DNA of 64,000 nucleotides, from NCBI RefSeq assembly GCF_020010925.1, contig NZ_JAGJBZ010000002.1:2542001-2606000 (forward strand), in the 5' to 3' direction. Positions within the stretch are counted from its first letter, which is position 1, and every line of letters starts with the position of its first letter. The stretch comes from Streptomyces griseiscabiei. GTDB lineage: Bacteria; Actinomycetota; Actinomycetes; Streptomycetales; Streptomycetaceae. Below the pieces are notes generated by a model, which was not told the DNA's origin, did no database searches, and worked only from the letters and a program-made list of their open reading frames with translations. Below, in pieces: positions 20,194-37,270 of this stretch. The translations under genes were made by a program, and so were the position numbers.

Positions 20194-20223
20194 GGAACTC
20201 CGTTCGCGGCCGTCCCGACTACT
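20194..20223 (+). promoter_or_regulatory. ECF sigma promoter A (copper operon)
   Basis: GGAACT at 20194-20199, exactly 16 bases, then CGACTACT at 20216-20223, 57 bases before the first ATG of the copper operon. The same two blocks with the same spacing occur at 25890 and 37241. GGAAC is the typical -35 of ECF sigma promoters. Since the operon contains an ECF sigma gene, autoregulation is likely. Confidence 0.8.
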
Positions 20224-20280
20224 GCTTCGGTACGGCGCGATCCGAGTGACGCCGTACGACGTGACCTGGAGACGCGGTTG

Positions 20281-20565
20281 ATGGACGAGTCCCGGCAATC
20301 CCCCTTACCCGGCGCGGGAGCGCCCCGGCGGTGGGCGGTTCCCCCGCCCGCGCTCTGCGGCTTCCTCCTGCTGCTGGCGCTGATCTTCACGGTGTCCTAC
20401 GCCGTGGGCGCCGCCGCCGGCCCCGTGGCACCCGGGATGCGTGGAACCGGCACCGGCGGCGACAGCGGGGGAGCGGAGAACACGGGGGACTCCGGCGGCA
20501 TGGGTGACATGGGTGCGACCGGCGGCATGCGGGACATGGGCGGCATGGACGAGGGAGGCCGCTGA
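20281..20565 (+). CDS. Small membrane protein with Gly/Met-rich tail (probable copper-responsive)
   Basis: 94 aa from ATG 20281. Residues about 20-48 form one hydrophobic helix (LCGFLLLLALIFTVSYAVGAAAG). The outer C-terminal tail is glycine-rich with repeated methionines (GGMGDMGATGGMRDMGGMD), the kind of thioether-rich segment that binds Cu(I). It is the first gene of the operon under ECF promoter A, and its TGA overlaps the CopA start (TGATG). Family not recognised. Role inferred: copper binding or sensing at the membrane. Confidence 0.7.
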   Translation: MDESRQSPLPGAGAPRRWAVPPPALCGFLLLLALIFTVSYAVGAAAGPVAPGMRGTGTGGDSGGAENTGDSGGMGDMGATGGMRDMGGMDEGGR

Positions 20566-22871
20566 TGGGCGCGGAGCCCGTGACCGCCCTGGTGACCACC
20601 GATCTGACCGTCGGCGGCATGACGTGCGCGGCCTGTGTGAACCGGGTCGAGAAGAAGCTCGCCAGGCTGGAGGGCGTCACGGCGACCGTCAACCTGGCCA
20701 CGGGGACGGCACGTGTGAGCCACCCGGCGGACATCCGACCGGACGAACTCGTCGCGACCGTGGAGAAGGCCGGCTACACGGCCACCGTGCCCGAGCCGCC
20801 CCGGCGTACGGAGGCCGCGGACACCGAAGCCGCCGACGAGGCCGACGACCTGCGGCCCGAGCGGGACCGGCTGATCGTCACCGCCCTCCTCGCGGTGCCC
20901 GTGCTCGTGCTGTCGATGGTGCCCGACCTGCAGTTCCGCAACTGGCAGTGGCTGTGCTTCACCCTCACCGCGCCCGTCGCCGTCTGGGGCTCCCGGCCCT
21001 TCCACGTCCGGGCCGTACGGGGACTGCGGCACTCCGCGGCGACCATGGACACCCTCGTCTCGCTGGGCGTGGCGGCCTCCTTCTGCTGGTCGGCGTACGC
21101 CCTCTTCCTCGGCGGAGCGGGCGACCCCGGGATGCGGATGCCGTTCTCGCTCCTGCCCACCGCCCCGGACGGCACGGCGCACATCTATCTCGAAGCGGCC
21201 GTCGGCGTACCGCTGTTCGTCCTGGCGGGCCGATACCTGGAGGCGCGGGCCCGCCGGGGGACCGGTGCGGCCCTGCGGTCGCTGGCCCGGCTCGCCGCGA
21301 AGGAGGTGTCGGTCCGCGCCGAGGACGGCACCGAACGCCTGCTCCCCATCGAGGAGTTGAGGTCCGGACAGGTCTTCGTCGTACGGCCGGGGGAGCGGGT
21401 CGCCACCGACGGTGAGGTGACGGAGGGCAGTTCCGCCGTCGATCTGTCCCTGGTGACCGGGGAGAGCGAACCGGTCGAGGTCGGGCCCGGCTCGGCCGTG
21501 GTCGGCGGGGCCGTCAACGCCGGGGGGCTGCTGCTCGTCCGGGCCACCGCCGTGGGCGCGGACACTCAACTGGCGCGCATCACCCGGCTGGTGACGGACG
21601 CCCAGGCCGGGAAGGCGCGCGCCCAGCGGCTGGCCGACACCGTGGCCGGGGTCTTCGTCCCGGTCGTGCTGGCGCTGGCCGCCACCACGCTCGGGTTCTG
21701 GCTGGGCGCCGGCGCCGACCCGCAGGCGGCGATCACCGCGGGGGTGGCCGTCCTGGTGGTGGCCTGCCCCTGCGCGCTGGGCCTCGCCACCCCCACCGCG
21801 CTGATGGCGGCGACCGGACGCGGTGCCCAGCTGGGCGTCCTCGTCACCGGACCGCAGGCCCTGGAGGGGCTGCGGCACGTCGACGCCGTCGTCCTGGACA
21901 AGACCGGCACCCTCACCACCGGGCACATGAGCGTCGCGAGGGTCACCGTCGTACCGGACGGCCTCGGCCGCGACACCGTCCTGCGGCTGGCCGCGGCCGT
22001 GGAACAGGGCTCGGAGCATCCGCTCGGCCGCGCCGTCGTCACCTACGCCCGACGGGAGCCGGACGCGCGGCGGGAGGCCGACGCGGGACGCCGGTCGGGC
22101 GGGCGGCGGCTGCCGGAGGTCAGCGGGTTCGCCGCGCTGCCGGGACGCGGGGTGAGGGGCCGGGTCGAGGGGCGGCTCGTCGAAGTGCTCGCCCCGGGCG
22201 ACGAACTGCCCGCCGTCCTCGCCGACGCGCTGGCGGCGGCCGAAGCCGCCGCCCGCACCCCCGTGGTGGTGCGCGTGGACGGCACCCTCGAGGCGCTGAT
22301 CGAGATAGGCGACGTCGTCCGCCCCGGCAGCTACCGGGCCGTGGAGCGGCTGCGCGGGCTCGGCGTACGGCCGGTGCTCGCCACCGGTGACCGCGAGGCA
22401 CCCGCCCGGGCCGTCGCGTCCACGCTGGGCATCGAGGAGGTGCACGCCCGCCGCACCCCCGAGGACAAGGCCGAACTCGTCCTGGAACTGCAGGAACAGG
22501 GATACCGGGTCGCGGTCGTCGGCGACGGCGTCAACGACGCCGCCGCGCTGGCCGGCGCCGACCTCGGGATCGCGATGGGCACGGGGACGGACGTGGCCAT
22601 CGGCGCCGCCGACGTCACGCTCGTCCGCGGTGACATCGAGGCCCTCGCGGACGCGGTCCTGCTGGCCCGGCGCACGCTGGGCACGATCCGCGTCAACCTC
22701 GTCTGGGCGTTCGGCTACAACGCCGTCACCGTGCCGCTCGCCATGGCCGGCCTCCTCAACCCGATGCTCGCCGCGGCGGCCATGTCGGCCAGCTCGGTGC
22801 TGGTCGTCGCCAACAGCCTCCGGCTGCGCGCCTGGCAGCCCAGCCCCACGACCCGGAGCCGTACCCGATGA
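20565..22871 (+). CDS. copA: Copper-translocating P-type ATPase (CopA, P1B-1)
   Basis: 768 aa. One N-terminal heavy-metal-binding domain with GGMTCAAC (about residues 16-23). Cu(I) signature: CPC in TM6 (VACPCALG, about 400), YN in TM7 (FGYNAV) and MxxSS in TM8 (MSASSV). Phosphorylation motif DKTGT about 445, hinge GDGVNDAA about 652. It moves Cu(I) out of the cytoplasm. Because it is co-transcribed with PCu(A)C chaperones and shares an ECF promoter with chalkophore genes, I infer delivery of copper to exported cuproenzymes rather than only detoxification. Start overlaps the Met-rich gene; the end overlaps the next gene by ATGA. Confidence 0.95.
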   Translation: MGAEPVTALVTTDLTVGGMTCAACVNRVEKKLARLEGVTATVNLATGTARVSHPADIRPDELVATVEKAGYTATVPEPPRRTEAADTEAADEADDLRPERDRLIVTALLAVPVLVLSMVPDLQFRNWQWLCFTLTAPVAVWGSRPFHVRAVRGLRHSAATMDTLVSLGVAASFCWSAYALFLGGAGDPGMRMPFSLLPTAPDGTAHIYLEAAVGVPLFVLAGRYLEARARRGTGAALRSLARLAAKEVSVRAEDGTERLLPIEELRSGQVFVVRPGERVATDGEVTEGSSAVDLSLVTGESEPVEVGPGSAVVGGAVNAGGLLLVRATAVGADTQLARITRLVTDAQAGKARAQRLADTVAGVFVPVVLALAATTLGFWLGAGADPQAAITAGVAVLVVACPCALGLATPTALMAATGRGAQLGVLVTGPQALEGLRHVDAVVLDKTGTLTTGHMSVARVTVVPDGLGRDTVLRLAAAVEQGSEHPLGRAVVTYARREPDARREADAGRRSGGRRLPEVSGFAALPGRGVRGRVEGRLVEVLAPGDELPAVLADALAAAEAAARTPVVVRVDGTLEALIEIGDVVRPGSYRAVERLRGLGVRPVLATGDREAPARAVASTLGIEEVHARRTPEDKAELVLELQEQGYRVAVVGDGVNDAAALAGADLGIAMGTGTDVAIGAADVTLVRGDIEALADAVLLARRTLGTIRVNLVWAFGYNAVTVPLAMAGLLNPMLAAAAMSASSVLVVANSLRLRAWQPSPTTRSRTR

Positions 22872-23443
22872 CCGGCGGACCCCCGGCGGCCCCCGTCCGC
22901 CCGACGGAGCCCCGGCCGGCCGCCCGCGCCGCCGACCCGTGGCGGCCCACGCGCCGCCGTCTCACCGACACCCTGCTCGCCGCCGTCGCGCCCGTCGTCG
23001 TCTGCGCCCTAGCCCTCAGCGGTCTGACCCTGTGGACCGTGTACGGCAACGCGGGCACTCCGCCGCGCATCGCCGTGACCGAGGGCCGGGTGTTCCTGCC
23101 GACCGGTGACACCCCGCAGACGGCGGCGTTCTTCCGGGTCACCAACAGCGGTGGCTCGGCCGACCGGCTGGTGAAGGTGACCTCCGCCGACGTCGACGGC
23201 CCCGGCAGCCTCAGCCGGCACCGTATGACCGGTACCGCCTCCGCCGTCGCCGAGACGGTGGCCTCGGTCGCCGTACCGGCGGGCGGCACCCTCGCCATGA
23301 CCCCGACCGGCCTCGACGTGATCGTGCCGGTGAACACGGACTGGCGGTTCGGCGACCTCGTCGACTTCACCCTGCACTTCGAACACAGCGGAGCCGTACG
23401 GGCCCTCGCGGTGGTGGACCGGCCCGGCGGGGAGGCCGAGTGA
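22868..23443 (+). CDS. PCu(A)C-type periplasmic copper chaperone, membrane anchored
   Basis: 191 aa. An N-terminal cytoplasmic part is followed by a TM helix at about 36-58 (LLAAVAPVVVCALALSGLTLW). The exported domain shows PCu(A)C features: TAAFFRVTNSGGSADRLVKVTS, the RHRM ligand segment (H-x-M) and LAMTPTGLDVIV. Such proteins pass copper to Cu-A centres of cytochrome oxidase. It is translationally coupled to copA (ATGA), which supports a handover from CopA outside the membrane. The distal methionine of LAM is probably also a ligand. Confidence 0.85.
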   Translation: MTGGPPAAPVRPTEPRPAARAADPWRPTRRRLTDTLLAAVAPVVVCALALSGLTLWTVYGNAGTPPRIAVTEGRVFLPTGDTPQTAAFFRVTNSGGSADRLVKVTSADVDGPGSLSRHRMTGTASAVAETVASVAVPAGGTLAMTPTGLDVIVPVNTDWRFGDLVDFTLHFEHSGAVRALAVVDRPGGEAE

Positions 23444-23503
23444 ACCCGCGAGCGCCCCGGACCGGGCGTGGCCGCCGGGCCCGGGCATGGGGATGAGGCC
23501 GTC

Positions 23504-24583
23504 ATGACCGCCGGGCGGGGTGTGCGCACGCTCAGGGCGGTGGTGTTCGCGGCCGTCTGCGTGCTGCTCGCCGCCCTCGGCCATCTCCTGATGTCGGGCT
23601 TCCCTGTGCCCTGGTGGACGACGGCCGCCGGGTTCGCCGCCACGGCCGGCGCCGGCTGGTGTCTGGCGGGCCGCGAACGCGGGCTCCCCCTCGTCCTGTC
23701 CGTCGCCGTCCTGGCGCAGGGCGCGCTCCACCGTGCCTTCGCCCTGACCGGCGGAGGGTCTGCCGACCCGTCGGCCGGCATGAGCGGCGCAGGGGGAGCG
23801 GGCACGGGCGGCGGGGGCGCTGCGGGTCTCATGGGCGGTGTGGGCCACGCGGCGCACATGGGCCACGCCGCGCATCCGGGGCCCGCCGCGCATCTGGGGC
23901 TCTCGGCCCACCCGGGGCACGGCACGGACGGCGGTTCGTCGTCGCTCGGGATGCTCGCCGCCCACACCCTGGCCGCGCTGTTGAGCGGGCTGTGGCTGGG
24001 CCACGGGGAACGGGCGGCGTTCCGGGTGCTGCGGGCGGTCGCCGGGTGGCTGGCCGCGCCGTTGCGGCGGCCGGCCTCCGCAACGGCCGTGCCGGCGCCC
24101 CGGCCGGGTCCGGGACCTTCGCGTGAACGCACGGTACGGGTGCCGCGGCCGGCGCTCGCCCACACGATCGTGTCCCGTGGCCCCCCGGCCGGGACCGCTG
24201 TCGTCCGAGACAGCCGGTGTCCCGAGCCCGTCCGCCTCTTCCCCGGACACCGCACAGCCGGTGCCCGGGCCGGGGGCAGACCCTCGGGCCGGAGTCGTGC
24301 GCGTCGCCACGTGTACGGCCTCTCCCCTCTCCCTCCCGTTCCGGGACGTCTCCGCGGCGCCCACCGTGCCGCCCCGTGTGTTCGGCATGCCGGGGCGCGA
24401 CCGGGGCCGCCGCCGCGCCTCCGCGCGCCGCCGCACCTTCCGTCGGGCCCGTCCGTGTCCTCGGCCGGGCGCCGGGTGCCGCCGCGCCGGATCCCGGACC
24501 TTCCGACAGGACATCCAGGTGATCACTTCTGTTCAGCCCGTCCCGCACACGACGCGCGACGAGGCGCACCGGTCGAGCCGTGA
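23504..24583 (+). CDS. Membrane protein with His-rich loop, encoded before the ECF sigma gene
   Basis: 359 aa from ATG 23504. Helices at about 9-30 (VVFAAVCVLLAALGHLLMSG), 35-50 and 60-75, then a Gly-rich, Met- and His-rich segment (MGGVGHAAHMGHAAHPG and more histidines to about residue 150), then another helix (LAAHTLAALLSGLWLGHG). The final 140 residues (after about 24130) are Arg/Pro-rich and look like read-through of non-coding DNA; relatives as I remember them end near IVSRGPP, so the stop may have been lost. Probable copper-binding or sensing membrane protein. Its reading frame overlaps the start of the sigma gene. Function inferred only. Confidence 0.6.
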   Translation: MTAGRGVRTLRAVVFAAVCVLLAALGHLLMSGFPVPWWTTAAGFAATAGAGWCLAGRERGLPLVLSVAVLAQGALHRAFALTGGGSADPSAGMSGAGGAGTGGGGAAGLMGGVGHAAHMGHAAHPGPAAHLGLSAHPGHGTDGGSSSLGMLAAHTLAALLSGLWLGHGERAAFRVLRAVAGWLAAPLRRPASATAVPAPRPGPGPSRERTVRVPRPALAHTIVSRGPPAGTAVVRDSRCPEPVRLFPGHRTAGARAGGRPSGRSRARRHVYGLSPLPPVPGRLRGAHRAAPCVRHAGARPGPPPRLRAPPHLPSGPSVSSAGRRVPPRRIPDLPTGHPGDHFCSARPAHDARRGAPVEP

Positions 24584-25178
24584 CGAGTCGGCCACCGCCT
24601 GGGCGCTGGCCGCCCGTGGCGGCGACCCGGCCGCTCTCGACCGGTTCGTGCGGGCCCTGCACCCCGATGTCGTCCGCTACATCACCCATCTCTCCTCCGA
24701 CCGTCAGCTCGCCGACGACCTCGCGCAGGACACGTTCCTGAGGGCGCTCGGCAGTCTGCACCGGTTCGAGGGCCGCTCCTCGGCGCGCACCTGGCTGCTG
24801 TCCATCGCGCGCCGCACGGTCGTCGACAGCCTGCGCCATGCCGCCGCCCGGCCCCGGTCGGCCGACGCGGACGACTGGACGACGTGCGCCGAACGGGCCC
24901 GGCCGGCCGGACTGCCCGGGTTCGAGGACGGCGTGGCCCTGCTCGACCTGCTGGACGCGCTCCCCGCCGAGCGCCGCCAGGCCTTCGTCCTCACCCAACT
25001 GGCGGGGCTGCCCTACGAGGAGGCCGCCGAGGTCAGCGGCTGCCCCGTGGGGACCATCCGCTCCCGGGTGGCACGCGCGCGGGCGACCCTCGTGCGGCTG
25101 CTGATCGAGGCGGAGTCCGAGCCCGCGAGCGGCGCCTCGGCCGAGAGACGGCACCTGCCGTCCCCGGCAGCCGCGTAG
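24519..25178 (+). CDS. ECF-family RNA polymerase sigma factor (copper/chalkophore regulon)
   Basis: 219 aa from GTG 24519, chosen because sigma-70 region 2 begins soon after; the longer frame upstream has no conservation. Region 2 reads DPAALDRFVRALHPDVVRYI and DRQLADDLAQDTFLRALGSLHRFEG with RTWLLSIARRTVVDSLR. Region 4 reads LDLLDALPAERRQAFVLTQLAGLPYEEAAEV and GCPVGTIRSRVARARATL. No classical zinc-binding anti-sigma gene follows. It sits last in the operon driven by promoter A and would read the three identical GGAACT-N16-CGACTACT sites. As I recall, mycobacterial SigC, which lacks a known anti-sigma, controls copper-acquisition genes of the same type. Confidence 0.9.
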   Translation: MITSVQPVPHTTRDEAHRSSRDESATAWALAARGGDPAALDRFVRALHPDVVRYITHLSSDRQLADDLAQDTFLRALGSLHRFEGRSSARTWLLSIARRTVVDSLRHAAARPRSADADDWTTCAERARPAGLPGFEDGVALLDLLDALPAERRQAFVLTQLAGLPYEEAAEVSGCPVGTIRSRVARARATLVRLLIEAESEPASGASAERRHLPSPAAA

Positions 25179-25277
25179 GGGACACAGCGGCCGGCGCCCG
25201 CGCCGCCCCACCGGTGCTCAGCGCCATCCGCGGCCACCGTGGCAACGGCCCGTCGTCGCCTCCGACGCCCCCGGCCC

Positions 25278-25769
25278 TCATGGCTGCCGTACGGCGTCGG
25301 TCACCGTCGCCCGCACCACCACCCGGCCGCTCCGGCGGAACCACAGGGTGTACGGCACGGTCTGTCCGGACGTCAGCACCGGCGGGTCCAGGATCACGAC
25401 CCCGAGCCCGCCCGGCGCCATACGGACCGTGCCGCCGGGCGGGACGTCGACGGCCCAGGCCGGTTCCGTGCGGCCCGTCCCGGTCCGGCGGACGGTGCGG
25501 CGCAGGACGCTGACGCCGAGTTCCGTCGAGTCGGCGTACAGCAGGGTGTCCCGCGACGCCCCGGTGTTGCGGATCTCGAAGTACGCGGCGGTCGAGTCGG
25601 CGCCCTCGGGCGCCGGGACGATACGCGCGTACCCGACCGTGATCCGGGGCGGCGCGTCACCGGCCGCGCCGGTCGCCGTGTACGCCACCAGCAGGGCCAG
25701 CGCGCAGAGGGAGGCCGCCGAGGGCGCCGCGGCGGCCCGCAGGACGTGTCTCAGGGTTTCGTGCTCCAT
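25278..25769 (-). CDS. PCu(A)C-like exported protein with degenerate copper ligands
   Basis: 163 aa from ATG 25769. One N-terminal hydrophobic helix (PSAASLCALALLVAYTAT) anchors or exports it. The beta-sandwich matches the PCu(A)C pattern and the paralogue at 22868: TAAYFEIRNTGASRDTLLYA, VPPGGTVRMAPGGLGVVIL. The H-x-M segment of the paralogue is replaced by VLRRTVRRTG, so at least the His and one Met are missing. Convergent with the sigma gene and divergent from the biosynthetic operon. It may bind a different metal or the isonitrile complex, or assist the other chaperone. Confidence 0.7.
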   Translation of the reverse strand: MEHETLRHVLRAAAAPSAASLCALALLVAYTATGAAGDAPPRITVGYARIVPAPEGADSTAAYFEIRNTGASRDTLLYADSTELGVSVLRRTVRRTGTGRTEPAWAVDVPPGGTVRMAPGGLGVVILDPPVLTSGQTVPYTLWFRRSGRVVVRATVTDAVRQP

Positions 25770-25889
25770 GGCCCATTGGTCGGCGGGCGCTCCCGCCGGG
25801 TTCCCCGCCGGTGCCGGGCCGACCGGTTCCGGAGGGTGGTGGCGGGAATCAACTCGCCCTGAAGAAAAGGGAATTGGCGCGAACTCACG

Positions 25890-25919
25890 GGAACTCACCC
25901 GCACTCCGGTCCGACTACT
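25890..25919 (+). promoter_or_regulatory. ECF sigma promoter B (isonitrile biosynthesis operon)
   Basis: GGAACT at 25890-25895, 16 bases, CGACTACT at 25912-25919, 42 bases before the ATG at 25962. The -35 region is part of a direct repeat GAACTCAC (25881-25888 and 25891-25898), and a GTCCGAC direct repeat flanks the -10 (25909-25915 and 25921-25927). Identical core to promoters A and C. Confidence 0.82.
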
Positions 25920-25961
25920 AGTCCGACAGCACACCCCACGACCACCCGCACGGAGACCGCT

Positions 25962-26714
25962 ATGACGCCGGAGATCGAGGACGCCTTCGCCGCCGTCCGG
26001 GCCGAGTACGGCGCCGCGTCGATCACCCGTGTCGAACGGATGCTGCAGCCGGGCGCGGACACCCGGCATCCGCTGCAGCGGGCGGCCAAGTGGATCATGC
26101 CGGGTCTCTCCCCGACCCCTTGGCACGACCCCTGTGCCCACGCCGAGCTGGTGCCCGTCGTCCGCGCGCTGGAGGAAGGCCACGAGGCGATCAAGAAGGA
26201 GCTGACGGTCGCCTGGGCGTCCCACCGGGACGCGTTCTCGGACTACGAGCACTATCTGACCCGCCAGGAGAACTGGCAGGCCCTCCACCTCTTCCGCGAC
26301 GGGCACCTCGTCGCGGAGTCGGCCGCCACGGCACCCACCGCGCACCGGATCCTGAAGGAGACGGCCGTCGACACGGAGAAGATCTGCCCTCTCCTCGAAA
26401 GCCACTTCTCCACCCTGCTGCCGGGCGCGGTCGTCGAACCCCACTGCGATCTCTGGAACTTCAGCATCAACCTGCATCTCGCCGTGGACATCCCCGACGG
26501 GTGCTCGCTCACGGTCGCCGGGGAGACCCGCGCCTGGGAGGAGGGGCGCTGTCTGCTCTTCGACTACTCCTTCGAGCACGAGGCCCGCAACGAGGGCACC
26601 CGCCCCCGGACCTGTCTGCTCGTCGACCTCTGGCACCCGGAGACCACCGTCCCCGAACGCCGGGCGCTGGTGGCCCTGTTCACGGAGATCCGCCGGCTCA
26701 TGGGGGTGGACTGA
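25962..26714 (+). CDS. Aspartyl/asparaginyl beta-hydroxylase-like Fe(II)/2-oxoglutarate oxygenase
   Basis: 250 aa, first gene after promoter B. The C-terminal half has the Asp_Arg_Hydrox pattern: VVEPHCDLWNFSINLHLAV (His161, Asp163), the loop GETRAWEEGRCLLFDYSFEHEARNEG with a second metal-type His206, and RTCLLVDLWHPE, where the Arg fits the 2-oxoglutarate-binding position. The N-terminal half (to about residue 110) is not recognised. Family members hydroxylate peptidyl or free Asp/Asn or lipid chains. Its place at the head of the isonitrile operon suggests tailoring of the lipopeptide or of a precursor; it has no counterpart in the canonical ScoA-E set. Confidence 0.8.
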   Translation: MTPEIEDAFAAVRAEYGAASITRVERMLQPGADTRHPLQRAAKWIMPGLSPTPWHDPCAHAELVPVVRALEEGHEAIKKELTVAWASHRDAFSDYEHYLTRQENWQALHLFRDGHLVAESAATAPTAHRILKETAVDTEKICPLLESHFSTLLPGAVVEPHCDLWNFSINLHLAVDIPDGCSLTVAGETRAWEEGRCLLFDYSFEHEARNEGTRPRTCLLVDLWHPETTVPERRALVALFTEIRRLMGVD

Positions 26715-26720
26715 GCGACG

Positions 26721-28136
26721 ATGCCCCTGCTGATCCTGGCGCTCGGCCAGCTCGTCATCTCCCTCGACCACAGCATCGTGTACGTCGCCCTGCCCGACAT
26801 CGGCGGCGGGCTCGGCTTCTCCGACCACGACCTCCAGTGGGTGGTGAGCGCCTACGTCGTGGCCACCGGCGGCTTCCTGCTGCTCGGCGGCCGGGCCGCC
26901 GACCTGCTGGGCCGACGGCGGATGTTCGTCCTGGCCGCACTGCTGTACGCCGGCTCGTCCCTCGTCGGCGGCTTCGCCGGCTCACCCGGCGTCCTGGTCG
27001 CCGTCCGGGCGGTCCAGGGCATCGGCGGCGCGCTGCTGTTCCCGGCGACGCTGTCCCTGATCACCACCCTGTACGACGAGGGGCCGGCCCGGAACCGTGC
27101 CCTCGCGGTGTGGGGGGCCGCCGGGGCCGGCGGGCTCTGCTTCGGGTCGCTGCTCGGCGGGGTCCTGGTGGAGGCGTTCGGCTGGCCCTCGGTGTTCTTC
27201 GTCAACGTGCCCGTCGCCGGCGCCCTCGCGGTGGCCGGACGGCTGCTGTTCCCGGCGGACGGGCCCCGGGACCGCTCGCGCCGATTCGACGTGGCGGGCG
27301 CGCTGACGGCGACGGGCGGGACGACGCTTCTGGTGTTCCTGCTGGTCCAGGCCCCGGCGGAGGGGTGGACCACCCCGACGGCCCTGGTCGGCGCGGTGGC
27401 GGCCGTCGGACTGCTGGCGCTGTTCGCCGTGGTCGAGCGCCGGGCACGTGAACCGCTGGTACCGGCAAGGCTGTTCGCCCACCGGGGCCTGCTGGTGACG
27501 ATGGTGGTGACCGCGCTGTTCAGTGCCACGTTCAGTTCGGTGCCGTACTTCCTCACCCTGTACTTCCGGTCGGTGCACGGCTACAGCGCGGTCGCGACCG
27601 GCCTCGCGTTCCTCGTGCCCGCCGTGGTCGTCGCCCTGGGCACGCGGGTGGGCGAACGGGCCGTGGCCGCCTTCGGGGTGCGCCGCACGCTGGTGGGCGG
27701 CATGGCGCTGGGCGCCGCCGGAGCCGGGGCGCTCGGCCCGGCCCTCACCTCGGACGGCCCGTACGCCGCGCTGCTGCCGGGGATCGTGCTGCTGGGCCTC
27801 GGCCAGGGCGCCGCGTGGACCGGGATGTGGATCGCCGCGTCTGCCGGGGTCGCCCCGGGCGACCAGGGCATCGCCTCCGGAACGGCGTCGACGACACTCC
27901 AGGTGGGCGGCGCGGTGGGCCTCGCCCTGCTCGTCGCGGTCGCCGGGGGCGTGGGCCAGAACGCGTCCGGACCCGGGCTCCTCGACGGCATCCGCACCGC
28001 CGTCCTGACGATCGCGGCCGGTATCGGGTGCGGGGCGCTGGCGCTGGCTGCGGGGTGGAGGGCGAGCGGTGGAGCCGGCCTCACCGGGGCCGGGGCCACC
28101 GCCGTGACCGAGGCCGAGGGGGCGGGCGGTCCCTAG
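26721..28136 (+). CDS. MFS transporter, DHA2 (EmrB/QacA-like) family
   Basis: 471 aa with about 14 hydrophobic helices. Starts 6 bases after the oxygenase gene. Motifs: LDHSIVYVALPDIGGGLGF in TM1, GRAADLLGRRRMFV (motif A), VQGIGGALLFPATLSLI, and GAAGAGGLCFGSLLGGVLVEAFGWPSVFFVNVPVA (motif C region, key part GGVLVE and FFVNVP). These pumps use the proton gradient to export drugs or natural products. It probably exports the isonitrile lipopeptide. TM1 begins almost at the N-terminus, so the upstream start choice seems right. Confidence 0.9.
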   Translation: MPLLILALGQLVISLDHSIVYVALPDIGGGLGFSDHDLQWVVSAYVVATGGFLLLGGRAADLLGRRRMFVLAALLYAGSSLVGGFAGSPGVLVAVRAVQGIGGALLFPATLSLITTLYDEGPARNRALAVWGAAGAGGLCFGSLLGGVLVEAFGWPSVFFVNVPVAGALAVAGRLLFPADGPRDRSRRFDVAGALTATGGTTLLVFLLVQAPAEGWTTPTALVGAVAAVGLLALFAVVERRAREPLVPARLFAHRGLLVTMVVTALFSATFSSVPYFLTLYFRSVHGYSAVATGLAFLVPAVVVALGTRVGERAVAAFGVRRTLVGGMALGAAGAGALGPALTSDGPYAALLPGIVLLGLGQGAAWTGMWIAASAGVAPGDQGIASGTASTTLQVGGAVGLALLVAVAGGVGQNASGPGLLDGIRTAVLTIAAGIGCGALALAAGWRASGGAGLTGAGATAVTEAEGAGGP

Positions 28137-28188
28137 GCCCCGCTCCGGTGCCGGGCGTCCCTCCCTGACCGGCCTTCCGTCCGTACGG

Positions 28189-28226: not shown

Positions 28227-28273
28227 ACGTGTCCGGGCCGTCCGCCCGTCCTCCGCCATGTCTGGAGAACCTC

Positions 28274-29323
28274 ATGTCCCCTGTCGGCGCCGGTGTTTCC
28301 GCCCCTCCCGCGGCCGTCCTGTGCGGGCTGGCCGGATGGGTGCCGTCCCGTACGGTGACCAACGAGCAGCTCGCGGGACGGCTCGGCACGGACGACGCCT
28401 GGATCCGTGCCCGGACCGGAATCCGCACCCGCCACGCCGTCGAGCCCGGACAGGCGACCTCCGATCTGGCCGTCGAGGCGGGCCGCCGGGCACTGGCCTC
28501 GGCGGGGCCGGGCGGGGCCGACGCCGTCCTCCTCGCCACGACCACCCCGGACCACCCGTGCCCGGCCACCGCGCCCGCGGTCGCCGCCCGGCTGGGGCTG
28601 ACGGGAGCGGCCGCCTTCGACATCGGCGCGGTCTGCGCCGGCTTCGTCCACGGGCTGGCCTCGGCCGCCGGGCTGATCGCGGCCGGGATCGCGCGACGGG
28701 TCCTGCTCATCGGGGCGGACACGTACTCCACGATCGTGGACCCCCTGGACCGGGGCAACGCGATCCTCTTCGGCGACGGCGCCGGAGCCGTCGTCCTGCG
28801 CGCCGGACACCCCGACGAGCCCGGCGCCGTCGGCCACTTCGACCTCGGCAGCGACGGCACGCACGAGGACCTGATCACGGTCGCGGCCGGCGGTTCCCGA
28901 GGGCGGTCCCGGCCCGGTGAACCGAGCCGCGAGGAACGGCACTTCGCGATGCGGGGGCGGGAGGTCTACCGCCACGCCGTGACGCGGATGGCCGAGTCGG
29001 CGCGCACCACCCTGACCCGGGCCGGCCGGAAGACCGACGACGTCGACCACTTCGTACCCCACCAGGCCAACCTGCGGATCCTGTACGCGGTGGCCGACGA
29101 CCTCGGCCTCCCCCGGGAGCGCTGTGCGACGCATGTCGAGTCCGTCGGCAACACGGGCGCCGCCTCCATCCCGCTCGCCCTCGCCGACGCCGCCTCCCGC
29201 GGGGTGCTCCGGCCCGGCGACCGGCTGCTCCTCACCGCCTTCGGCGGCGGCCTCACCTGGGGCTCCTGCCTGCTGACCTGGCCCGCACCCCCGCAACCGC
29301 CACAAGAACGGACGACGTCATGA
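28274..29323 (+). CDS. 3-oxoacyl-ACP synthase III (FabH/KASIII) family enzyme
   Basis: 349 aa from ATG 28274. Complete catalytic triad: Cys121 in GAVCAGF, His263 in VPHQAN and Asn293 in SVGNTGAAS. The start VLCGLAGWVPSRTVTNEQLA and WIRARTGIRTRH are typical of FabH. It could extend or start an acyl chain on the ACP encoded next, with which it overlaps by ATGA, to supply an unsaturated or branched acid for isonitrile formation; an acyltransferase role (CerJ-like) is also possible. The canonical sco/Rv0097-0101 set lacks such an enzyme. Confidence 0.92.
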   Translation: MSPVGAGVSAPPAAVLCGLAGWVPSRTVTNEQLAGRLGTDDAWIRARTGIRTRHAVEPGQATSDLAVEAGRRALASAGPGGADAVLLATTTPDHPCPATAPAVAARLGLTGAAAFDIGAVCAGFVHGLASAAGLIAAGIARRVLLIGADTYSTIVDPLDRGNAILFGDGAGAVVLRAGHPDEPGAVGHFDLGSDGTHEDLITVAAGGSRGRSRPGEPSREERHFAMRGREVYRHAVTRMAESARTTLTRAGRKTDDVDHFVPHQANLRILYAVADDLGLPRERCATHVESVGNTGAASIPLALADAASRGVLRPGDRLLLTAFGGGLTWGSCLLTWPAPPQPPQERTTS

Positions 29324-29559
29324 GCACCACCTACGAGCAGCTCGTCGAGATCCTCACCCGGCTGCACGACACCCCGGCGGACCGGATCCGTCCCGAGGCG
29401 ACCCTCGGCGCACTGGACGTCGACTCGCTGACGACGGTCGAGATCAGCATCCGTATCGAGCGCGACCTCGGCGCGGCCGTCGGCGACGACGAACTCGAAC
29501 CCGACCTCACGCTCGGCGACGTGGCCCGGCTCATCGACGCCCGCCGCACCACCGTCTGA
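29320..29559 (+). CDS. Acyl carrier protein (partner of the KASIII enzyme)
   Basis: 79 aa. Phosphopantetheine site Ser36 in [11 protein letters not shown]. Helix II follows ([16 protein letters not shown]), and the C-terminus [15 protein letters not shown] is normal. Start overlaps the KASIII stop by four bases, so the two are likely made in equal amounts. It is distinct from the second carrier protein at 32609, so this operon has two separate ACPs. Probably carries the acyl chain made by the KASIII enzyme. Confidence 0.9.
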
Positions 29560-29581
29560 ACCCGCGGAAGGACACACCGAC

Positions 29582-30472
29582 ATGAAGATCGAGGAACAGC
29601 CCGGCGGCACGATGGGCGCCGTCGTGGAGGGCTTCGACCACACCACCGCACCGGACACGGACATCGCGGCCCTCAAGCACACCGTCTACACGAAGAAGAT
29701 CGCCGTACTGAAGGGCCAGGACCTCTCCCCGGAGGAATTCCTCGCGCTGGGCCAGCGGTTGGGCCGCCCGGAGACGTACTACGAGCCGATGTACCAGCAC
29801 CCGGAAGTCCCGGAGATATTCGTCTCCTCCAACGTCCCGAAGGACGGCAGGCAGATCGGTGTACCGAAGACGGGGAAGTTCTGGCACGCCGACTACCAAT
29901 TCATGCCCGACCCCTTCGGAATCACCCTGATCCACCCCCGGGTCGTCCCGGAGAGGAACCGGGGAACCTATTTCATCGACATGGGCCGGGCCTACGGGAA
30001 ACTGCCCGAGGACCTGAAGAAGGACATCGCGGGAACGTACTGCAGACACTCGGTGCGCAAGTACTTCAAAATACGGCCCGACGACGTCTACCGCCCCCTG
30101 AGCGAGATCATCGACGAGGTCGAGCGGAAGACCCCGGCGGTCCGGCAGCCGACCACGATCACCCACCCCATGACCGGCGAGACGATCCTCTACATCAGCG
30201 AGGGCTTCACCGTCGGCATCGAGGACGCGGACGGTGCGCCGCTCGACGAGGAACTGCTCAAGCGGCTGTTCGACGCCACCGGCCAGCTCGACGAGACCTT
30301 CGCGCACGAGGGCGTCCACCTGCAGGGCTTCGAACCCGGCGATCTGCTGATCTGGGACAACCGCAGCCTGGTCCACCGCGCCCGGCACACCACCACACCC
30401 GAGCCGACCGTCTCCCATCGCGTCACCGTCCACGACGAGCGGAGGCTGCACGACGGGATCGCGGCGACATGA
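29582..30472 (+). CDS. scoE: Isonitrile-forming Fe(II)/2-oxoglutarate decarboxylase-oxidase (ScoE / Rv0097-like)
   Basis: 296 aa, TauD fold. It converts a 3-(carboxymethylamino) acid (glycine adduct) to a beta-isonitrile acid. Metal ligands are His102 and Asp104 (WHADYQ) and His265 (LVHRARH); Arg280 is placed for 2-oxoglutarate. Substrate residues that I remember from ScoE (Tyr96, Tyr97, Tyr101, Arg157, Lys193, His132, Asp134, His295, Arg310) are all present here at a constant offset of 30: Tyr66, Tyr67, Tyr71, Arg127, Lys163 and so on. That makes an isonitrile synthase much likelier than a generic TauD. It overlaps scoD by ATGA. Confidence 0.93.
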
Positions 30473-31041
30473 CGGACGAGGCACTGCTGGCGCGCGTGCT
30501 GAGACCGTACAAGGAGCACTGCAGATATCTGCGTTCGGCCGTCGTCACCGAGAACGCGGACGGCAACGCCGTCGCCCACGGCGAGTTCGAGATCCCCGAG
30601 TCGTGCTACATCGACGACACCGGCCATCTGAATTCCGTCGAGGCGAACATCTGCTACAACCAGCTGATGTACTGCCTCGTCGCCAGGTCCGTACGGGACG
30701 GGCTGGGGACGGCATTCGCCGACTGGACGCTGGACGAATTCTTCGAGCGCCAGCTCCCGGACATTCTCATCGCCCGGTTCTCCACGCGGTTCCGGCGCCC
30801 GGTCGATCCCCGCTCCTTCTCGGGCGAGCTGGAGTTCCGCTCCGTCACCCGGCGCACCCCGGCCGGCGGCACTCCTTTCCTGTACGCCGAGACCGCCTTC
30901 CGCTACCGCGACGCCGCGTCCGGCCGCTGCGACGGCGAGGCGACCCTCGCGTTCGTCGACCTCCCCGGAGCCACGTCCCCCGAGCCACGTCCCGAGCCAC
31001 GTCCCCCGACCACCGAGACGACCCGAAGGCGCCGCCCATGA
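30469..31041 (+). CDS. scoD: FcoT/ScoD-like thioesterase of the isonitrile pathway
   Basis: 190 aa, hot-dog-type. It matches the mycobacterial Rv0098 (FcoT) pattern: [42 protein letters not shown] and [14 protein letters not shown] text ([13 protein letters not shown]). In the known pathway this enzyme helps add glycine to the alpha,beta-unsaturated acyl-ACP and releases the product as free acid for ScoE. The C-terminal 30 residues are Pro/Arg-rich and probably disordered. It overlaps scoE and scoC by 4 bases each. Confidence 0.88.
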
Positions 31042-32570
31042 GGACACTCGCCCGGACCACCCGTCAGCACGCCGAGCGGCGCCCCGACCTCCCGGCCGTG
31101 CTCTGCGAAGGCCGCACCCTGACGTACGGGCAACTGCACCGCGAGAGCAACCGGATCGCCCACGCCCTGCGGGAGGCGGGGCTCGTCCCGGGGGACCGGG
31201 TCGCCTACCTCGGCAAGGAGTCCGAGCACTACTACGAGATCCTCTTCGGCTGTGCGAAGAGCGGCACCGTCCTCGTCCCCGTCAACTGGCGGCTCGCCGC
31301 ACCCGAGGTCGGCCACATCCTCCGGGACTCCGGGACCCGACTGCTGTTCCTGGAGGACGAGTTCGCGCCGATCGTGAGGCGGATGCCGACCGCCCCGCCC
31401 GAGACGACGGTGGCGCTCGGAGCGGACTTCGCCACCTGGAAGGCGGCCCGCCCCGACACCGACCCGCCGGACACCGCCACCCCGGACACCCCGGTCGCGC
31501 AGCTGTACACCAGCGGAACCACCGGACTGCCCAAGGGCGTCGTCCTCGCCCACCGCAGTTTCTTCGCGATCCGTGACGCCCTGGCGAGCGAGGGACTGGA
31601 CTGGATCGACTGGCGGCCCGGCGACATCGCGCTGATCGGCATCCCCGGCTTCCACATCGGCGGCCTGTGGTGGGCGACGCAGAATCTCGACGCCGGCACC
31701 ACGGTGGTCGCCCTGCGCGCCTTCGACGCCCGTACGGCCGTGAACCTCATCCGGGACCTCCGCGTCACCACCGCCTGTGTCGTCCCGGCCATGCTCCGCA
31801 TGATGCTCACCGAACCCGGCGTCGGCCCCGAGGACTTCACCACCCTGCGCAAGACCGTCTACGGCGGCTCCCCGATCTCCGAGGCGCTGCTGGAGGAGAG
31901 CCTCGCCGTCCTGGACTGCGAGTTCGCCCAGATCTACGGCCTCACCGAGACCGGCAACACCGCCGTGTGCCTGCCACCCGCCGCCCATGTCCCCGGCGGC
32001 CCCCTCATGCAGGCGGCCGGACGCCCGTACCCCGGGGTACGGGCCAAGGTGATCGACGGCGAGGGGCGCGAACTGCCGCCCGGCGAGGTCGGGGAGGTCT
32101 GCCTCGCCACCCCCGCGCGCATGGTCGAGTACTGGAGGCTGCCCGACCGGACCGCCGAGACCCTCGTCGACGGCTGGATCCACACCGGGGACGCCGGACA
32201 CCTCGACGAGGACGGCCATGTCTTCATCCGCGACCGGATCAAGGACGCCGTCCTCGTGGCCGGGGAGAACGTCTACCCGGCCGAGATCGAGAACGTACTC
32301 GAAGCACATCCCGGCGTCGCCGAGGCCGTCGTCGTCGGCGCCCCCGACGAACGCTGGGGCGAGTACGTGCACGCCTTCGTCGTCCCCGTGCCCGGCGCCC
32401 GGCCACGCCCCCGTGATCTGCACAGCTTCCTCGTCCCACGGCTCGCGGCCTTCAAGCTGCCCGCCCGCTACGAGTTCATCGACGCCGTACCCCGCAACCC
32501 CAGCGGCAAGATCCTCCGCCGCGAACTGCGCGACCGCTTCTGGGGCGACCGCGCGCGCGGGGTCAACTGA
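31038..32570 (+). CDS. scoC: Fatty acyl-AMP ligase (ScoC / FadD10-like)
   Basis: 510 aa from ATG 31038, overlapping the scoD stop. Adenylating-enzyme motifs: YTSGTTGLPKGVV (from about residue 155), GFHIGGLWW, IYGLTETGNT, WIHTGDAGHLDEDG and the C-terminal Lys in PSGKILRREL. It activates the medium-chain or unsaturated acid as acyl-AMP and loads it on the carrier protein ScoB, first to start and again after isonitrile formation. The order scoE-D-C-B-A is the same as Rv0097-Rv0101. Confidence 0.92.
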   Translation: MRTLARTTRQHAERRPDLPAVLCEGRTLTYGQLHRESNRIAHALREAGLVPGDRVAYLGKESEHYYEILFGCAKSGTVLVPVNWRLAAPEVGHILRDSGTRLLFLEDEFAPIVRRMPTAPPETTVALGADFATWKAARPDTDPPDTATPDTPVAQLYTSGTTGLPKGVVLAHRSFFAIRDALASEGLDWIDWRPGDIALIGIPGFHIGGLWWATQNLDAGTTVVALRAFDARTAVNLIRDLRVTTACVVPAMLRMMLTEPGVGPEDFTTLRKTVYGGSPISEALLEESLAVLDCEFAQIYGLTETGNTAVCLPPAAHVPGGPLMQAAGRPYPGVRAKVIDGEGRELPPGEVGEVCLATPARMVEYWRLPDRTAETLVDGWIHTGDAGHLDEDGHVFIRDRIKDAVLVAGENVYPAEIENVLEAHPGVAEAVVVGAPDERWGEYVHAFVVPVPGARPRPRDLHSFLVPRLAAFKLPARYEFIDAVPRNPSGKILRRELRDRFWGDRARGVN

Positions 32571-32608
32571 CCGGGCCCTGCCACCGGGTCCACTGGAGAG
32601 AGAACACC

Positions 32609-32857
32609 ATGCCTGCTCCCCTCACACCGGAGGCCTTCCGCGCGGACCTCGCGGAGTTCCTGTTCCTGCGGCCCGACGAGGTCGACCTCGAAGACCACCC
32701 CGTGTACGCGGGCCTCGACTCCCTGCGCATCGTCACCCTCGTCGAACGCTGGCGGGACAGCGGCGCGGACGTGACCTTCGTCGACCTCGCCGAGTGCACC
32801 TCGTTCGCCCAGTGGTGGCGACTGCTCTCCCCCTCGGGCGAGGAGGGAGCCGCGTGA
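32609..32857 (+). CDS. scoB: Acyl carrier protein (ScoB / Rv0100-like)
   Basis: 82 aa. The phosphopantetheine attachment is Ser38 in YAGLDSLRIV. The surrounding FLFLRPDEVDLEDHPVYAGLDSLR and the TFVDLAECTSFAQWWRLL end resemble the aryl-carrier/ISP type and Rv0100 rather than fatty-acid ACPs. Its GTGA overlap with the NRPS gene supports direct delivery of the isonitrile acyl group to the condensation domain. Confidence 0.9.
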   Translation: MPAPLTPEAFRADLAEFLFLRPDEVDLEDHPVYAGLDSLRIVTLVERWRDSGADVTFVDLAECTSFAQWWRLLSPSGEEGAA

Positions 32858-35800
32858 CCGCCTCCCACGCCCTGCTGGCCGCGCAGGAAGGCATCTGGAC
32901 CGGCCAGCAGCTCGACACGGCCAGCCCCGCCTACAACACGGCCGAGTACGTGCACATCCACGGGCCGGTGGACACCTCCCTCTTCGAGGCGGCGCTGCGC
33001 CGGGTGGTCGGGGAGACCGAGGCGCTGCACGTCTCCTACGCCGTCGACGGCCGGGGGCGGCCCCGGGAGACGGTCACCCCGGCCGGCGGCCGGCGGCCCC
33101 ACACGGCCGACCTCACCACCCGCCCCGATCCGCACGCGGCGGCGCTGGCCTGGATGGACCGGGACATGGCCCGCCCCGTCGACCTCACCGAGGGCCCCGT
33201 CTTCGGCCACGCCCTGCTGCGGATCGCCCCGGAGGAGTACCTCTGGTACCACCGGGTGCACCACATCGCCCTCGACGGGTTCGGCCTCGCCCTGGTCGCG
33301 CGCCGGGTCGCCGACGTCTACACGGCCCTCGTGGCGGGGCGACCACCGGGGGACAGCGGCTTCGGCACCCTGGCCTCGGTACGCGAGGAGGAGCGCGCCT
33401 ACCGGGAGTCGCCACGCCACGCCGAGGACGGCGCGTACTGGGCCGCCCGGTACGCGGACCGGCCGCCCGTGCCCACGCCCGCCGGCCGCACGGCCCTGCC
33501 CGCCCGCACCTTCCGCCGACGGGTGGCCGACCTCGACGCCGGACGGACGGAGGCCCTGCGCACGGTCGCCCGCGACATCGGGGTGACCTGGTCCGAGATC
33601 CTGCTCGCCGTGGCCGCGGCCCGGCTGCACCGGCTGACGGGCGCCCCCGAGATCGTCCTCAGCCTGCCGGCGATGGGACGCCTCGGCTCCGTCGCGCTGC
33701 GCGTCCCCTGCACGGTCCGCAACATCCTGCCCCTGCGCGTCCCGGTCACCGCCTCGGACACCCCGCGCGACCTGGCCGTCCGTGTCTCCCGGGAACTCCG
33801 CGCCGGACTGCCGCACCAGCGCTACCGCTACGAACGGCTGCGGCGCGACCTCGGCCTGGTCGGCGGCCGGCGCCGGTTGTCCGGGCCGGGCGTCAACATC
33901 ATGCCCTTCGCCTACGACCTCCGCTTCGCCGGACACCGCAGCACCGTCCACAACGTCTCCGCCGGCCCGGTCGACGACCTGTCCGTCAACGTCTACGACC
34001 GCTCCGAGGGCACGGGACTCCGTATCGCCGTGGACGCCCACCCCGAGCTGTACGCCGAGCGGGAAGTCGCCGCGTTCCAGGAGGGGTTGCTCGCCCTGCT
34101 GGAGGAGGCCGCGGCCCACCCCGACCGGCCGCTCGGCGCCGCACCGCGCCCGGTGCCACCGCGTGCGGGGCCGGTGACCGCCACCCCCGCCCCCGACGTC
34201 GCTCCCGCCTCCCTCGCCGTCCTCGACGGCGGCCCCCTGCCGGGCACCGCGCGTCCCGTGCTCGACCTCATCGCCGCGCACGCCGCCCGGCACGGCGGTT
34301 CCGTAGCCGTGGAACACCAGGGGCGTACGGTCACCTACGCCCAACTCCTCGCCTCAGCACAGGAGGTGGCACATCGGCTGACCGCCCGCCAGGTCGGCCC
34401 GGGCGACCTGGTGACCGTCGCCCTGCCGCGCGGCGTCGACGCCGTCACCGCCGTCCTGGGCGTCCTGTCCGCCGGCGCCGCCTACAGCCCACTGGACCCG
34501 GCGGCCCCTCCGGCGCGCAGGAGGGCACTGCTGGCCGACACCCGTCCCGCGCTCGTCCTGACCACCCGGGCCCACGCCACCGGCTTCCCCGGCCACCCCG
34601 TCCTCCCGCTGGACGAGCCGCACCCCCGGCCCGGTCCGGCGGCCCGCCCGCAGGCGCCCGCACCGGACGGCCTCGCCTACGTCATGCACACCTCGGGTTC
34701 CACCGGCCGCCCCAAGGGCGTCGAGATCGGCCACCGCGCCCTCGCGCACTTCGTCGCCGGCGCCCTGCCCCGGTACGGCATCCGGCGCGGCGACCGCGTC
34801 CTGCAGTTCGCGCCGCTCACCTTCGACACATGCGTCGAGGAGGTCTTCCTCACCCTGTGCGCGGGCGCCACCCTCGTCGTACGGACCGACGACATGACCG
34901 AGTCGGTGCCCGGCTTCCTGGACGCCTGCGCCCGGCTGCGGATCAGCGTCCTGGACCTGCCCACCGCCTACTGGCACGAACTCGCCCACACCGTCTCGAC
35001 CGGCACCGCCGCACTTCCGCCCGGGGTGCGCACGGTCGTCATCGGCGGCGAGACGGCCCTGCCCGAACGGGTCGACCGCTGGCGCGCGGCGGTGGGCCCC
35101 TCGGTGCGGCTGCTCAACACCTACGGGCCGACCGAGGCCACCGTGGTCGCCACCGTCGCCGACCTGCACGATCCGGCCCTCGCCCCCGGGGACGTGCCCA
35201 TCGGACGGCCGCTCCCGGGCACCCGGGCCGCCGTCGTCGACGGTGAACTGCACCTCCTGGGCCCCCACCTGGCAGACGGCTACCGGGGAGACCCGGGGCC
35301 GGACGCCGCCCGCTTCGCCCCGCTCGACCGGCTTCCCGGAGCGCCGCGCGCCTACCGCACCGGCGACCTGGCACGGATCGGTGCGGACGGACAGCTGCGC
35401 CATCTGGGCCGCTCCGACGCCGAGTTCAAGATCAGTGGGCATCGGGTGCACCCCGCCGAGGTCGAGAGCGTGCTGCTGGCCCATCCCGGGGTCCGTGACA
35501 CCGCCGTCGTGGGACAGGTGGCGGCGGACGGGACGCGACGGCTGGTCGCCTACGTGGTCCCGGACGGGCCCGCCCCGGCCGTCTCCCACCTCAGGGAGCG
35601 GCTGCGGGCCGCCCTGCCCGCCGCGATGGTCCCCTCGGCCGTCGAGTTCCTGGACCGCCTGCCCCGCACCGCTTCGGGGAAGACGGACAGGAACGCGCTG
35701 GCCGTGCCCCGGGAGCGACCGGACCGGGAGACCGCCGCGCACGGCTCGCCGGAGGCCACCATCGCCGCCGTGTGGCGGGACGTGCTCGGCGTGGCGGCCG

Positions 35801-37227
35801 TGTCCGCCGAGGACGACGTCTTCGACCTCGGCGCCCACTCCCTCCAGGCCATCCAGGTCACCAACCGACTGAGCGCCGAACTCGGCCGTGATCTGAAGGT
35901 CGCCTGGCTGTTCCAGCATCCGACGCCCGCCGAACTGGCCCGGTTCCTGGACCGGGCGCCCCGGGAGGGCGACGACCCGGCGAAACCCCCGCCGGCCGGC
36001 CCCGCCCTCCCGGACACCCTGCTCGCGGACGCCGTCCTGGACCCCGCCGTCCGTATCGCCGCCCGCCCCCGCGCCACCACCGGCCCACCCGACCGGATCC
36101 TGCTCACCGGGGCCACCGGTTTCGTCGGCGCGCATCTGCTCGCGGAGCTGCTGAAGGCCACCGGTGCCGAGATCGTCTGCCCCGTCCGCGCCCCGGGCCC
36201 CGCCGAGGCCGCCGCCCGGGTCCGACAGGCCCTGCGCACACACGGGTTGAGCCCGGCGGCCGGGGCGGGCGCACGCGTCACGGCGATCCCCGCCGACCTC
36301 GCCCGCCCCCATCTGGGCCTGGACGAGGAGACGTTCGCCGAACTGGCCCGCACCTGCGGGGCGATCGTCCACAACGCGGCCACCGTCAGCATCCTGCGCG
36401 AGTACGCCACCCTCCGCGCCGCCAACACCGAGTCCACGAGACACCTGGTGCGCATGGCCGCCGTACGGGCGACGCCCCTGCATCTCGTCTCGACGCTCTC
36501 CGTCGCCCCGCCCCTCGCCCTGAGCCCCGAAGTGCCGGAGGCGTTCCTCCCGCCGCACCCCGGACTGCGGTACGGCTACCAGCGGTCGAAGTGGGCGGCC
36601 GAGCGACTGGTGGAGCAGGCCGCCGAGCGGGGGCTGCCGGTCACCGTGCACCGGCTCGGCCGGGTGGTCGGCCCGGCCTCGACCGGTTACGTCGACCAGC
36701 GGGACTTCCTGTGGAGCGTGCTGCGGGCGGGAGTGCCCGCGGGAGTCGTCCCCGACCTGTTCGAGGAGGAGATCTGGACGCCGGTCGACCAGGTGGCCCG
36801 CACGCTCGTCCATCTCTGCCTCGGCCGCCACCCCGCCGGCGCGACCGTCTTCAACCACGCGGCCGGCGCCCCGGTGCGACTGGCGGACCTCTACGACTGG
36901 CTGGAGGAGTACGGCTACCCGCTGCGCCGCGTCCCGGCGCACCGATGGCGGGCGGAGCTGCCGGTCTCCTCCGACGCGGCGGCGACCACACTGGCCTTCC
37001 TCGACTCCTGGGGAGCGGACGCCGGCGAGACCGGGGGCGCGGACCTGCGTCTCGGCCGGGTCCGCGCCGACAACGTCGTGAACGGCCTCCGCGGCAGCGG
37101 CATCACCTGCCCGCCCGTCGACCGGGACCTCGTCCTGCGCTACCTCGACCACTGCGTCACCACCGGCGCACTGCCCGCCCCCGCGGACCGCCGGAGCCGG
37201 GCCCATCTCCCCCTCCCCGCCGAGTAG
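32854..37227 (+). CDS. scoA: Nonribosomal peptide synthetase C-A-T-R (ScoA-like, isonitrile lipopeptide)
   Basis: 1457 aa from GTG 32854; the longer open frame upstream is out of phase with real genes. Condensation domain about 1-430 with HHIALDG (137). Adenylation domain about 470-930: [15 protein letters not shown] and RTGDLARIG. The specificity residues I extract, D-T-E-D-V-G-T-V-V plus Lys, include an acidic pair that fits lysine or ornithine. Carrier domain Ser996 (LGAHSLQAI). Terminal thioester reductase about 1080-1457 with [14 protein letters not shown] and YQRSK. A single module would acylate both amines of lysine and release the product reductively, as in ScoA; mycobacterial Nrp has two modules. 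Confidence 0.92.
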
Positions 37228-37240
37228 TCGAGGCCCGGCG

Positions 37241-37270
37241 GGAACTCCCGCGGCCCACCGTCCGACTACT
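37241..37270 (+). promoter_or_regulatory. ECF sigma promoter C (metallophore importer operon)
   Basis: GGAACT at 37241-37246, 16 bases, CGACTACT at 37263-37270, 56 bases before the ATG at 37327. It starts 14 bases after the NRPS stop. Its flank CGACTACTGC also matches promoter A. It gives the importer genes their own start site within the same regulon. Confidence 0.8.

Follow-up and report, generated by a model that had tools for sequence, protein, structure and literature searches.

A putative SigC-type promoter motif shared by predicted copper and chalkophore operons around an embedded sigma factor gene in Streptomyces griseiscabiei

A 64,000-nt stretch of the Streptomyces griseiscabiei genome (here called the window) carries a copper operon, an isonitrile operon and a metallophore importer operon, each preceded by the same two-part motif, and the copper operon includes the gene for an ECF sigma factor. 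The question raised by this locus is whether the three operons form one regulon, and whether the embedded sigma factor controls it. The first-pass annotation had proposed both, from three identical motifs with a constant spacer standing 42–57 nt before start codons. A motif scan of the window confirmed this arrangement: GGAACT-N16-CGACTACT occurs exactly at 20194, 25890 and 37241, in all cases on the forward strand, and the distances from the end of the motif to the ATG codons at 20281, 25962 and 37327 are 57, 42 and 56 nt respectively. Pfam and NCBIfam matches support the nature of the three operons, whose features are as follows.

20194..20223, forward: putative SigC-type promoter 1 (−35 GGAACT, −10 CGACTACT; exact motif), heading the copper operon with the embedded sigma gene
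20281..20565, forward: 94-aa peptide, first gene of the operon (from the translation, one hydrophobic stretch and a Met/Gly-rich tail)
20565..22871, forward: Cu-type P1B ATPase with HMA domain (Pfam; TIGR01511 496 bits, cut-off 397)
22868..23443, forward: PCu(A)C copper chaperone (PF04314)
23504..24583, forward: Met/His-rich membrane protein that may act as a copper sensor (conservation extends to about 24205)
24519..25178, forward: SigC-like ECF sigma factor (Pfam; NCBIfam SigC; tree)
25278..25769, reverse: second PCu(A)C chaperone (PF04314)
25775..25804, reverse: weaker putative SigC-type site GGAACC-N16-CGACCAAT (3 mismatches), preceding the second PCu(A)C gene
25890..25919, forward: putative SigC-type promoter 2 (exact motif), heading the isonitrile operon
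25962..26714, forward: aspartyl/asparaginyl hydroxylase-type protein (PF05118)
26721..28136, forward: MFS transporter (PF07690)
28274..29323, forward: ketosynthase III-type protein (PF08541, PF08545)
29320..29559, forward: acyl carrier protein (PF00550)
29582..30472, forward: ScoE, isonitrile-forming oxygenase/decarboxylase (NF049937 519.5 bits, cut-off 400)
30469..31041, forward: ScoD, enoyl-ACP glycyltransferase (NF049938 276 bits, cut-off 250)
31038..32570, forward: acyl-ACP ligase, ScoC-type (PF00501)
32218..37227, forward: NRPS, C-A-T-reductase (Pfam; actual start probably near 32570)
37241..37270, forward: putative SigC-type promoter 3 (exact motif), heading the importer operon
37327..38367, forward: metallophore-type substrate-binding protein (PF01497)
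38409..39398, forward: FecCD-type permease, start uncertain (PF01032)
39430..40227, forward: ABC ATPase (PF00005)

Both ScoE and ScoD score above their NCBIfam equivalog cut-offs, which marks the second operon as an isonitrile lipopeptide pathway, and from its genes the product is predicted to be an isonitrile lipopeptide chalkophore. The 94-aa peptide has no match in Pfam; its relatives precede the ATPase gene in other loci.

The exact motif was absent from 100 dinucleotide-preserving shuffles, compared with three copies in the window. Allowing up to three mismatches gives 10 matches (2.57 expected), and all seven of the non-exact matches carry three mismatches, so that the window has no further copy at two or fewer. 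In the whole genome (10.6 Mb), a scan with spacers of 15–17 found five exact copies, compared with two for a reversed-pattern control. Four of these are intergenic and stand before genes, while the fifth (L005) falls within a SAM-methyltransferase gene, probably by chance. The fourth intergenic copy (C2:2489015, or L001:1501) is 53 kb before the window, 43 nt upstream of the ATG of a gene for a 470-aa PepSY_TM protein. The earlier statement that no other copy exists is thus correct for the window and incorrect for the genome. Relaxing the pattern to GGAACY-N16-CGACYNCT added one genomic site (L160, GGAACC...CGACCGCT), also judged probably a chance match.

GGAACT and CGACTA are present in all four sites (the three in the window and the fourth intergenic copy), and three of the four have an extra leading G, the exception being 20194, which has C there. 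These are the elements GGGAACT and CGACTA that are given for sigma-C of Corynebacterium glutamicum in the available text of PMC5483222, where they are attributed to Toyoda and Inui 2016; the introduction of the same paper instead gives GGAAAC and CGACT. The same source shows that cg2556, an "iron-regulated membrane protein", is sigma-C dependent in vitro and in vivo.

The sigma factor itself scores 174 bits against the NCBIfam SigC equivalog, under the cut-off of 219. Its best model is PRK12535 (181 bits, short of the cut-off of 290), with SigC second and the next model at 100 bits; two mycobacterial relatives exceed the SigC cut-off, with 254 and 224 bits. In a tree with three ECF rows as outgroup and long branches, the Streptomyces sigmas group with five mycobacterial proteins apart from other ECF factors (support 100/98). 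Region 4 is nearly identical between the window and mycobacterial proteins. By sequence, the window gene is therefore assigned to the SigC branch, though it lies below the equivalog cut-off.

Conservation was assessed in 39 Streptomyces sigma loci of 16–20 kb each, selected by their match to the sigma factor and not by the motif. The ATPase gene is also present in 16 of them (operon-linked), and the remaining 23 are standalone. A site with at most two mismatches, spacer 16 and within 700 nt precedes the operon in 15 of the 16 operon-linked loci, L068 being the sole one without it, and is found within 700 nt of the membrane-protein gene in none of the 23 standalone loci. As background, 27 of 2000 random 300-nt stretches of the sigma loci, true sites included, contain a match at this threshold. 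Judged from these promoter positions, autoregulation appears to be optional in the family: a putative promoter stands before the operon of the embedded sigma, such a site occurs in only part of the family, and the claim of an autoregulated sigma was not upheld as first worded. A division of operon-linked and standalone sigmas into two clean clades was ruled out, as the tree requires 12 label changes.

The site likewise precedes the isonitrile operon in all six Streptomyces loci that show the operon start (L038, L040, L041, L043, L123 and L127), of which L123 and L127 had been selected by motif or ScoE matches; in L038 (598 nt away), L040, L041 and L043 it has zero or one mismatch. ScoE was found in eight of 345 genomes across the class, and in none of 14 control genomes.

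Co-occurrence was analysed in 245 other Streptomyces genomes, in which the sigma was scored as present at a best E below 1e-50 (175 genomes) and absent at a best E above 1e-23 (70 genomes). The exact motif occurs in 93 of the 175 and in five of the 70 (Fisher p = 2e-12, uncorrected for kinship or genome size); scoring the exact pattern only, 82 sigma-bearing genomes have no copy. The motif gives 148 matches in sigma-bearing and five in sigma-lacking genomes, compared with 131 and 47 for the reversed pattern, which is a poor background given its 47 matches against five in the 70 sigma-lacking genomes. The shuffles, the conservation and the co-occurrence with the sigma family together rule out a chance origin of the motif set.

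The PepSY_TM gene was followed up as a target outside the window. Among 28 new loci (drawn from 63 motif places in 20 genomes), a PepSY_TM gene lies behind the site in 10. In 30 Streptomyces genomes picked by sigma status alone, a close orthologue (68–74% identity) is present in five of the 15 sigma-bearing genomes, in all five cases with a site of 0–2 mismatches 44–59 nt upstream. Seven of these 15 have only a distant relative, with a site in one, and three have none; among the 15 sigma-lacking genomes, three have a distant relative, none with a site, and 12 have none. A SigC-type promoter is not a general property of PepSY_TM genes, and this idea was ruled out: only 10 of 80 named loci have a site at up to three mismatches (Streptomyces 5/5, Mycolicibacterium 3/4, Mycobacterium 1/3 and weak, Tsukamurella 1/7, others 0/61), compared with a background of 36 in 3800 random 400-nt stretches. 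The cg2556 product of C. glutamicum is, we assume, a PepSY_TM protein like this fourth target. In Bordetella, a CrpH-type PepSY_TM protein is induced by copper starvation and proposed to be a heme-dependent reductase, according to the available text of PMC13038864; it resembles the Streptomyces protein in its PepSY_TM domain and in the copper-starvation response predicted for the latter, and differs in its host.

A further target is suggested by the weaker site GGAACC-N16-CGACCAAT, which ends 5 nt upstream of the ATG of the minus-strand PCu(A)C gene (25769). In L038, L040 and L051, the orthologues of this gene are preceded at 50–86 nt by a variant site with 1–2 mismatches, and the window gene is probably a fifth member of the regulon. 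The shared ECF-type promoter and the copper and chalkophore character of the regulon are strongly supported as first described; its restriction to three operons was not upheld.

Regulons of this class, and their promoter, are already known from mycobacteria and Corynebacterium. In Mycobacterium tuberculosis, SigC drives ctpB, a copper ATPase gene, as well as the chalkophore operon nrp, and cells need it to grow without copper; the growth defect of a sigC mutant is reversed by copper (PMC7924339, in the text available); a role of ctpB and nrp in copper acquisition is also supported by the accessible parts of PMC9147137 and PMC9600254. S. griseiscabiei shares with it a SigC-type ECF sigma, and an isonitrile NRPS operon and a Cu-type P1B ATPase as targets, direct in M. 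tuberculosis (PMC7924339, PMC9147137, as far as their available text goes) and predicted in S. griseiscabiei; related promoter elements are present in mycobacterial loci. The gene set ScoE, ScoD, acyl ligase and C-A-T-R NRPS is likewise that of the SF2768-type isonitrile lipopeptide clusters of Streptomyces and mycobacteria (PMC9600254, available text). However, M. tuberculosis sigC is monocistronic and is described, in the portions of the literature consulted, as not autoregulated and as having no known anti-SigC factor, whereas in S. griseiscabiei the sigma gene follows a conserved membrane-protein gene in an operon that is itself a predicted target, and the predicted targets include a dedicated ABC importer. 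The C. glutamicum regulon shares the promoter elements, but is described as responding to respiratory defects, and the available text of PMC5483222 mentions no chalkophore cluster. What is new is the Streptomyces version, in which the sigma gene sits in one of its predicted target operons, alongside a constantly associated membrane-protein gene, and the predicted target set is wider and includes an importer. A search of the open-access literature, with subscription papers mostly outside it, found no report of sigma control of a Streptomyces isonitrile or chalkophore cluster.

The mycobacterial genomes compared show PPE genes adjoining ScoE. Genes for the ATPase, a SigC-like sigma, a PepSY_TM protein and the NRPS are neighbours in [Mycobacterium] fortunisiensis, Mycolicibacterium peregrinum, M. 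setense and M. senegalense, and GGGAACT-N16-CGACCACT is upstream of the PepSY_TM gene in three of the four species, with a weak, distant match in the other. Of five mycobacterial ScoE loci, four have sites with 1–3 mismatches ahead of PPE, ScoE or ATPase genes; none was found in the fifth (L114). Two other actinobacterial ScoE genomes (family f18) have only unlike sigma matches (31–34% identity) and no spacer-16 site near ScoE, which fits the pairing of sigma and site. In one mycobacterial genome (G559), an exact GGAACT-N16-CGACTACT at L144:222-251 is near a Cu-type ATPase gene but faces the end of the contig and not that gene.

Conservation, co-occurrence and the published sigma-C elements together strongly support a copper and chalkophore regulon that includes the embedded sigma gene, and we consider it highly probable that the three sites are SigC-type ECF promoters that jointly switch on copper scavenging, uptake and delivery when copper is scarce. 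Sequence, conservation, co-occurrence and kinship are the observed part of this reading; promoter use, the copper signal and feedback are inferred. In the proposed scheme, copper scarcity would release or activate the SigC-like factor, and transcription by RNA polymerase bound to this factor or to its paralog would start at GGAACT-N16-CGACTACT. The targets would be the copper-loading operon encoding the sigma itself, giving positive feedback; the isonitrile lipopeptide operon; the metallophore ABC importer; the PepSY_TM protein encoded outside the window, with a possible role in reducing the metal complex; and, as a probable fifth target, the second PCu(A)C chaperone. On this reading Streptomyces would join mycobacteria and Corynebacterium in having a SigC copper-starvation response, and the promoter sequence would be a handle for finding copper-responsive metallophore and copper genes in genomes.

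The paralog is the main complication. A second SigC-like sigma is encoded on contig C3 of the same genome (L036); it is 68% identical to the window sigma and has a similar region 4, which means that regulation at the genome level cannot be assigned to one sigma factor, and the original picture of a single controlling sigma was not upheld. There is an appreciable chance, somewhat short of even, that this paralog also recognises the promoters or is their main reader, so that the embedded sigma would be one of two inputs and not the sole regulator. Apart from the likeness of the two proteins, this would agree with genome G226, where the motif stands before PepSY_TM, importer and ATPase units and the best sigma match is a standalone locus; on the other hand, it is the embedded sigma whose gene lies among those of a predicted target operon, and the motif is absent from the unit of the paralog.

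Alternatively, the cells could be responding to impaired aerobic respiration or some other stress that the copper genes serve to relieve; in C. glutamicum the sigma-C regulon is described as induced when aerobic respiration is defective (PMC5483222, available text). We regard this alternative as unlikely, because the motif-headed genes with a recognisable role in S. griseiscabiei point to copper or metallophore handling, and because copper cures the growth defect of M. tuberculosis sigC (PMC7924339, in its accessible part). That the motif is instead the target of a DNA-binding regulator, either a repressor or an activator, and not a promoter specific to a sigma factor, is very improbable: it has two parts separated by an unvarying 16 bases, stands at a fixed distance from start codons, is identical to the published sigma-C elements and co-occurs with the sigma family.

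Under the preferred reading of SigC-type promoters that respond to copper scarcity, the membrane protein is the likeliest carrier of the signal to the sigma, and is hypothesised to be a copper sensor. Its gene is immediately 5′ of the sigma gene on the same strand in all 39 Streptomyces loci. The protein (23504) has no Pfam match and hence no recognised anti-sigma domain. A structure model of low confidence (mean pLDDT 62.7, pTM 0.39) has four predicted helices; the segment that joins the third and fourth is variable and rich in Met and His. H27, M30, H76, M148 and H152 (numbering of the L040 protein) are invariant in 37 sequences, and an SRGPP motif is conserved at the C-terminus. Among the scored candidates, 2863 relatives fall at or below an E of 1e-5; of these, the 120 listed are, where named, hypothetical, uncharacterised, integral-membrane or PE-PGRS proteins, and come from Streptomyces wherever an organism is given. 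A tblastn search found no homologue near mycobacterial sigma genes. As a tentative proposal, which we hold to be possible with the balance somewhat against it, the protein would be an undescribed type of copper sensor, in which the copper-loaded outer loop inhibits the SigC-like factor and copper depletion frees it. If so, Streptomyces would possess a partner of the kind so far missing for SigC of M. tuberculosis. How copper deficiency is sensed in M. tuberculosis is a question posed in PMC7924339, which also states that no anti-SigC factor is known; the Streptomyces protein would make that question testable, as a concrete sensor candidate from a harmless genus.

Several observations concern this gene pair. 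In 22 aligned relatives the membrane protein ends at a conserved GTAVV-like end, and the frame in the window continues for about 125 residues; this extension (24206-24583) overlaps the sigma start, and its GC content by codon position does not resemble that of coding DNA. It could stem from a lost stop or from a sequencing error. In some other loci, an extra SigC-type site just before the membrane-protein gene faces the opposite way and reads into the end of the PCuAC gene (L074:8613, L124:10823, L127:14759, L129:5557, L130:11149, L131:9905); the window has no such opposite-facing site before the gene. The second sigma/membrane-protein pair of S. griseiscabiei (L036:9826-11457, C3) has no ATPase nearby and no promoter. 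Tandem duplications of the pair occur at L067:8677-11839 and L131:8205-12088.

Importers of the window type are present in two of the 39 loci (L068, L074), both with a site upstream. A different ABC importer (permease 45–51% identical) is present in 10 of the 39, with an upstream site at up to two mismatches in eight; L048 and L053 have none. In these eight loci (L046, L047, L049, L050, L051, L052, L054 and L059) the promoter and the different importer are mostly accompanied by an MFS gene, and the importer, which may belong to another copper-binding metallophore, occupies the position that the chalkophore cluster has in the window.
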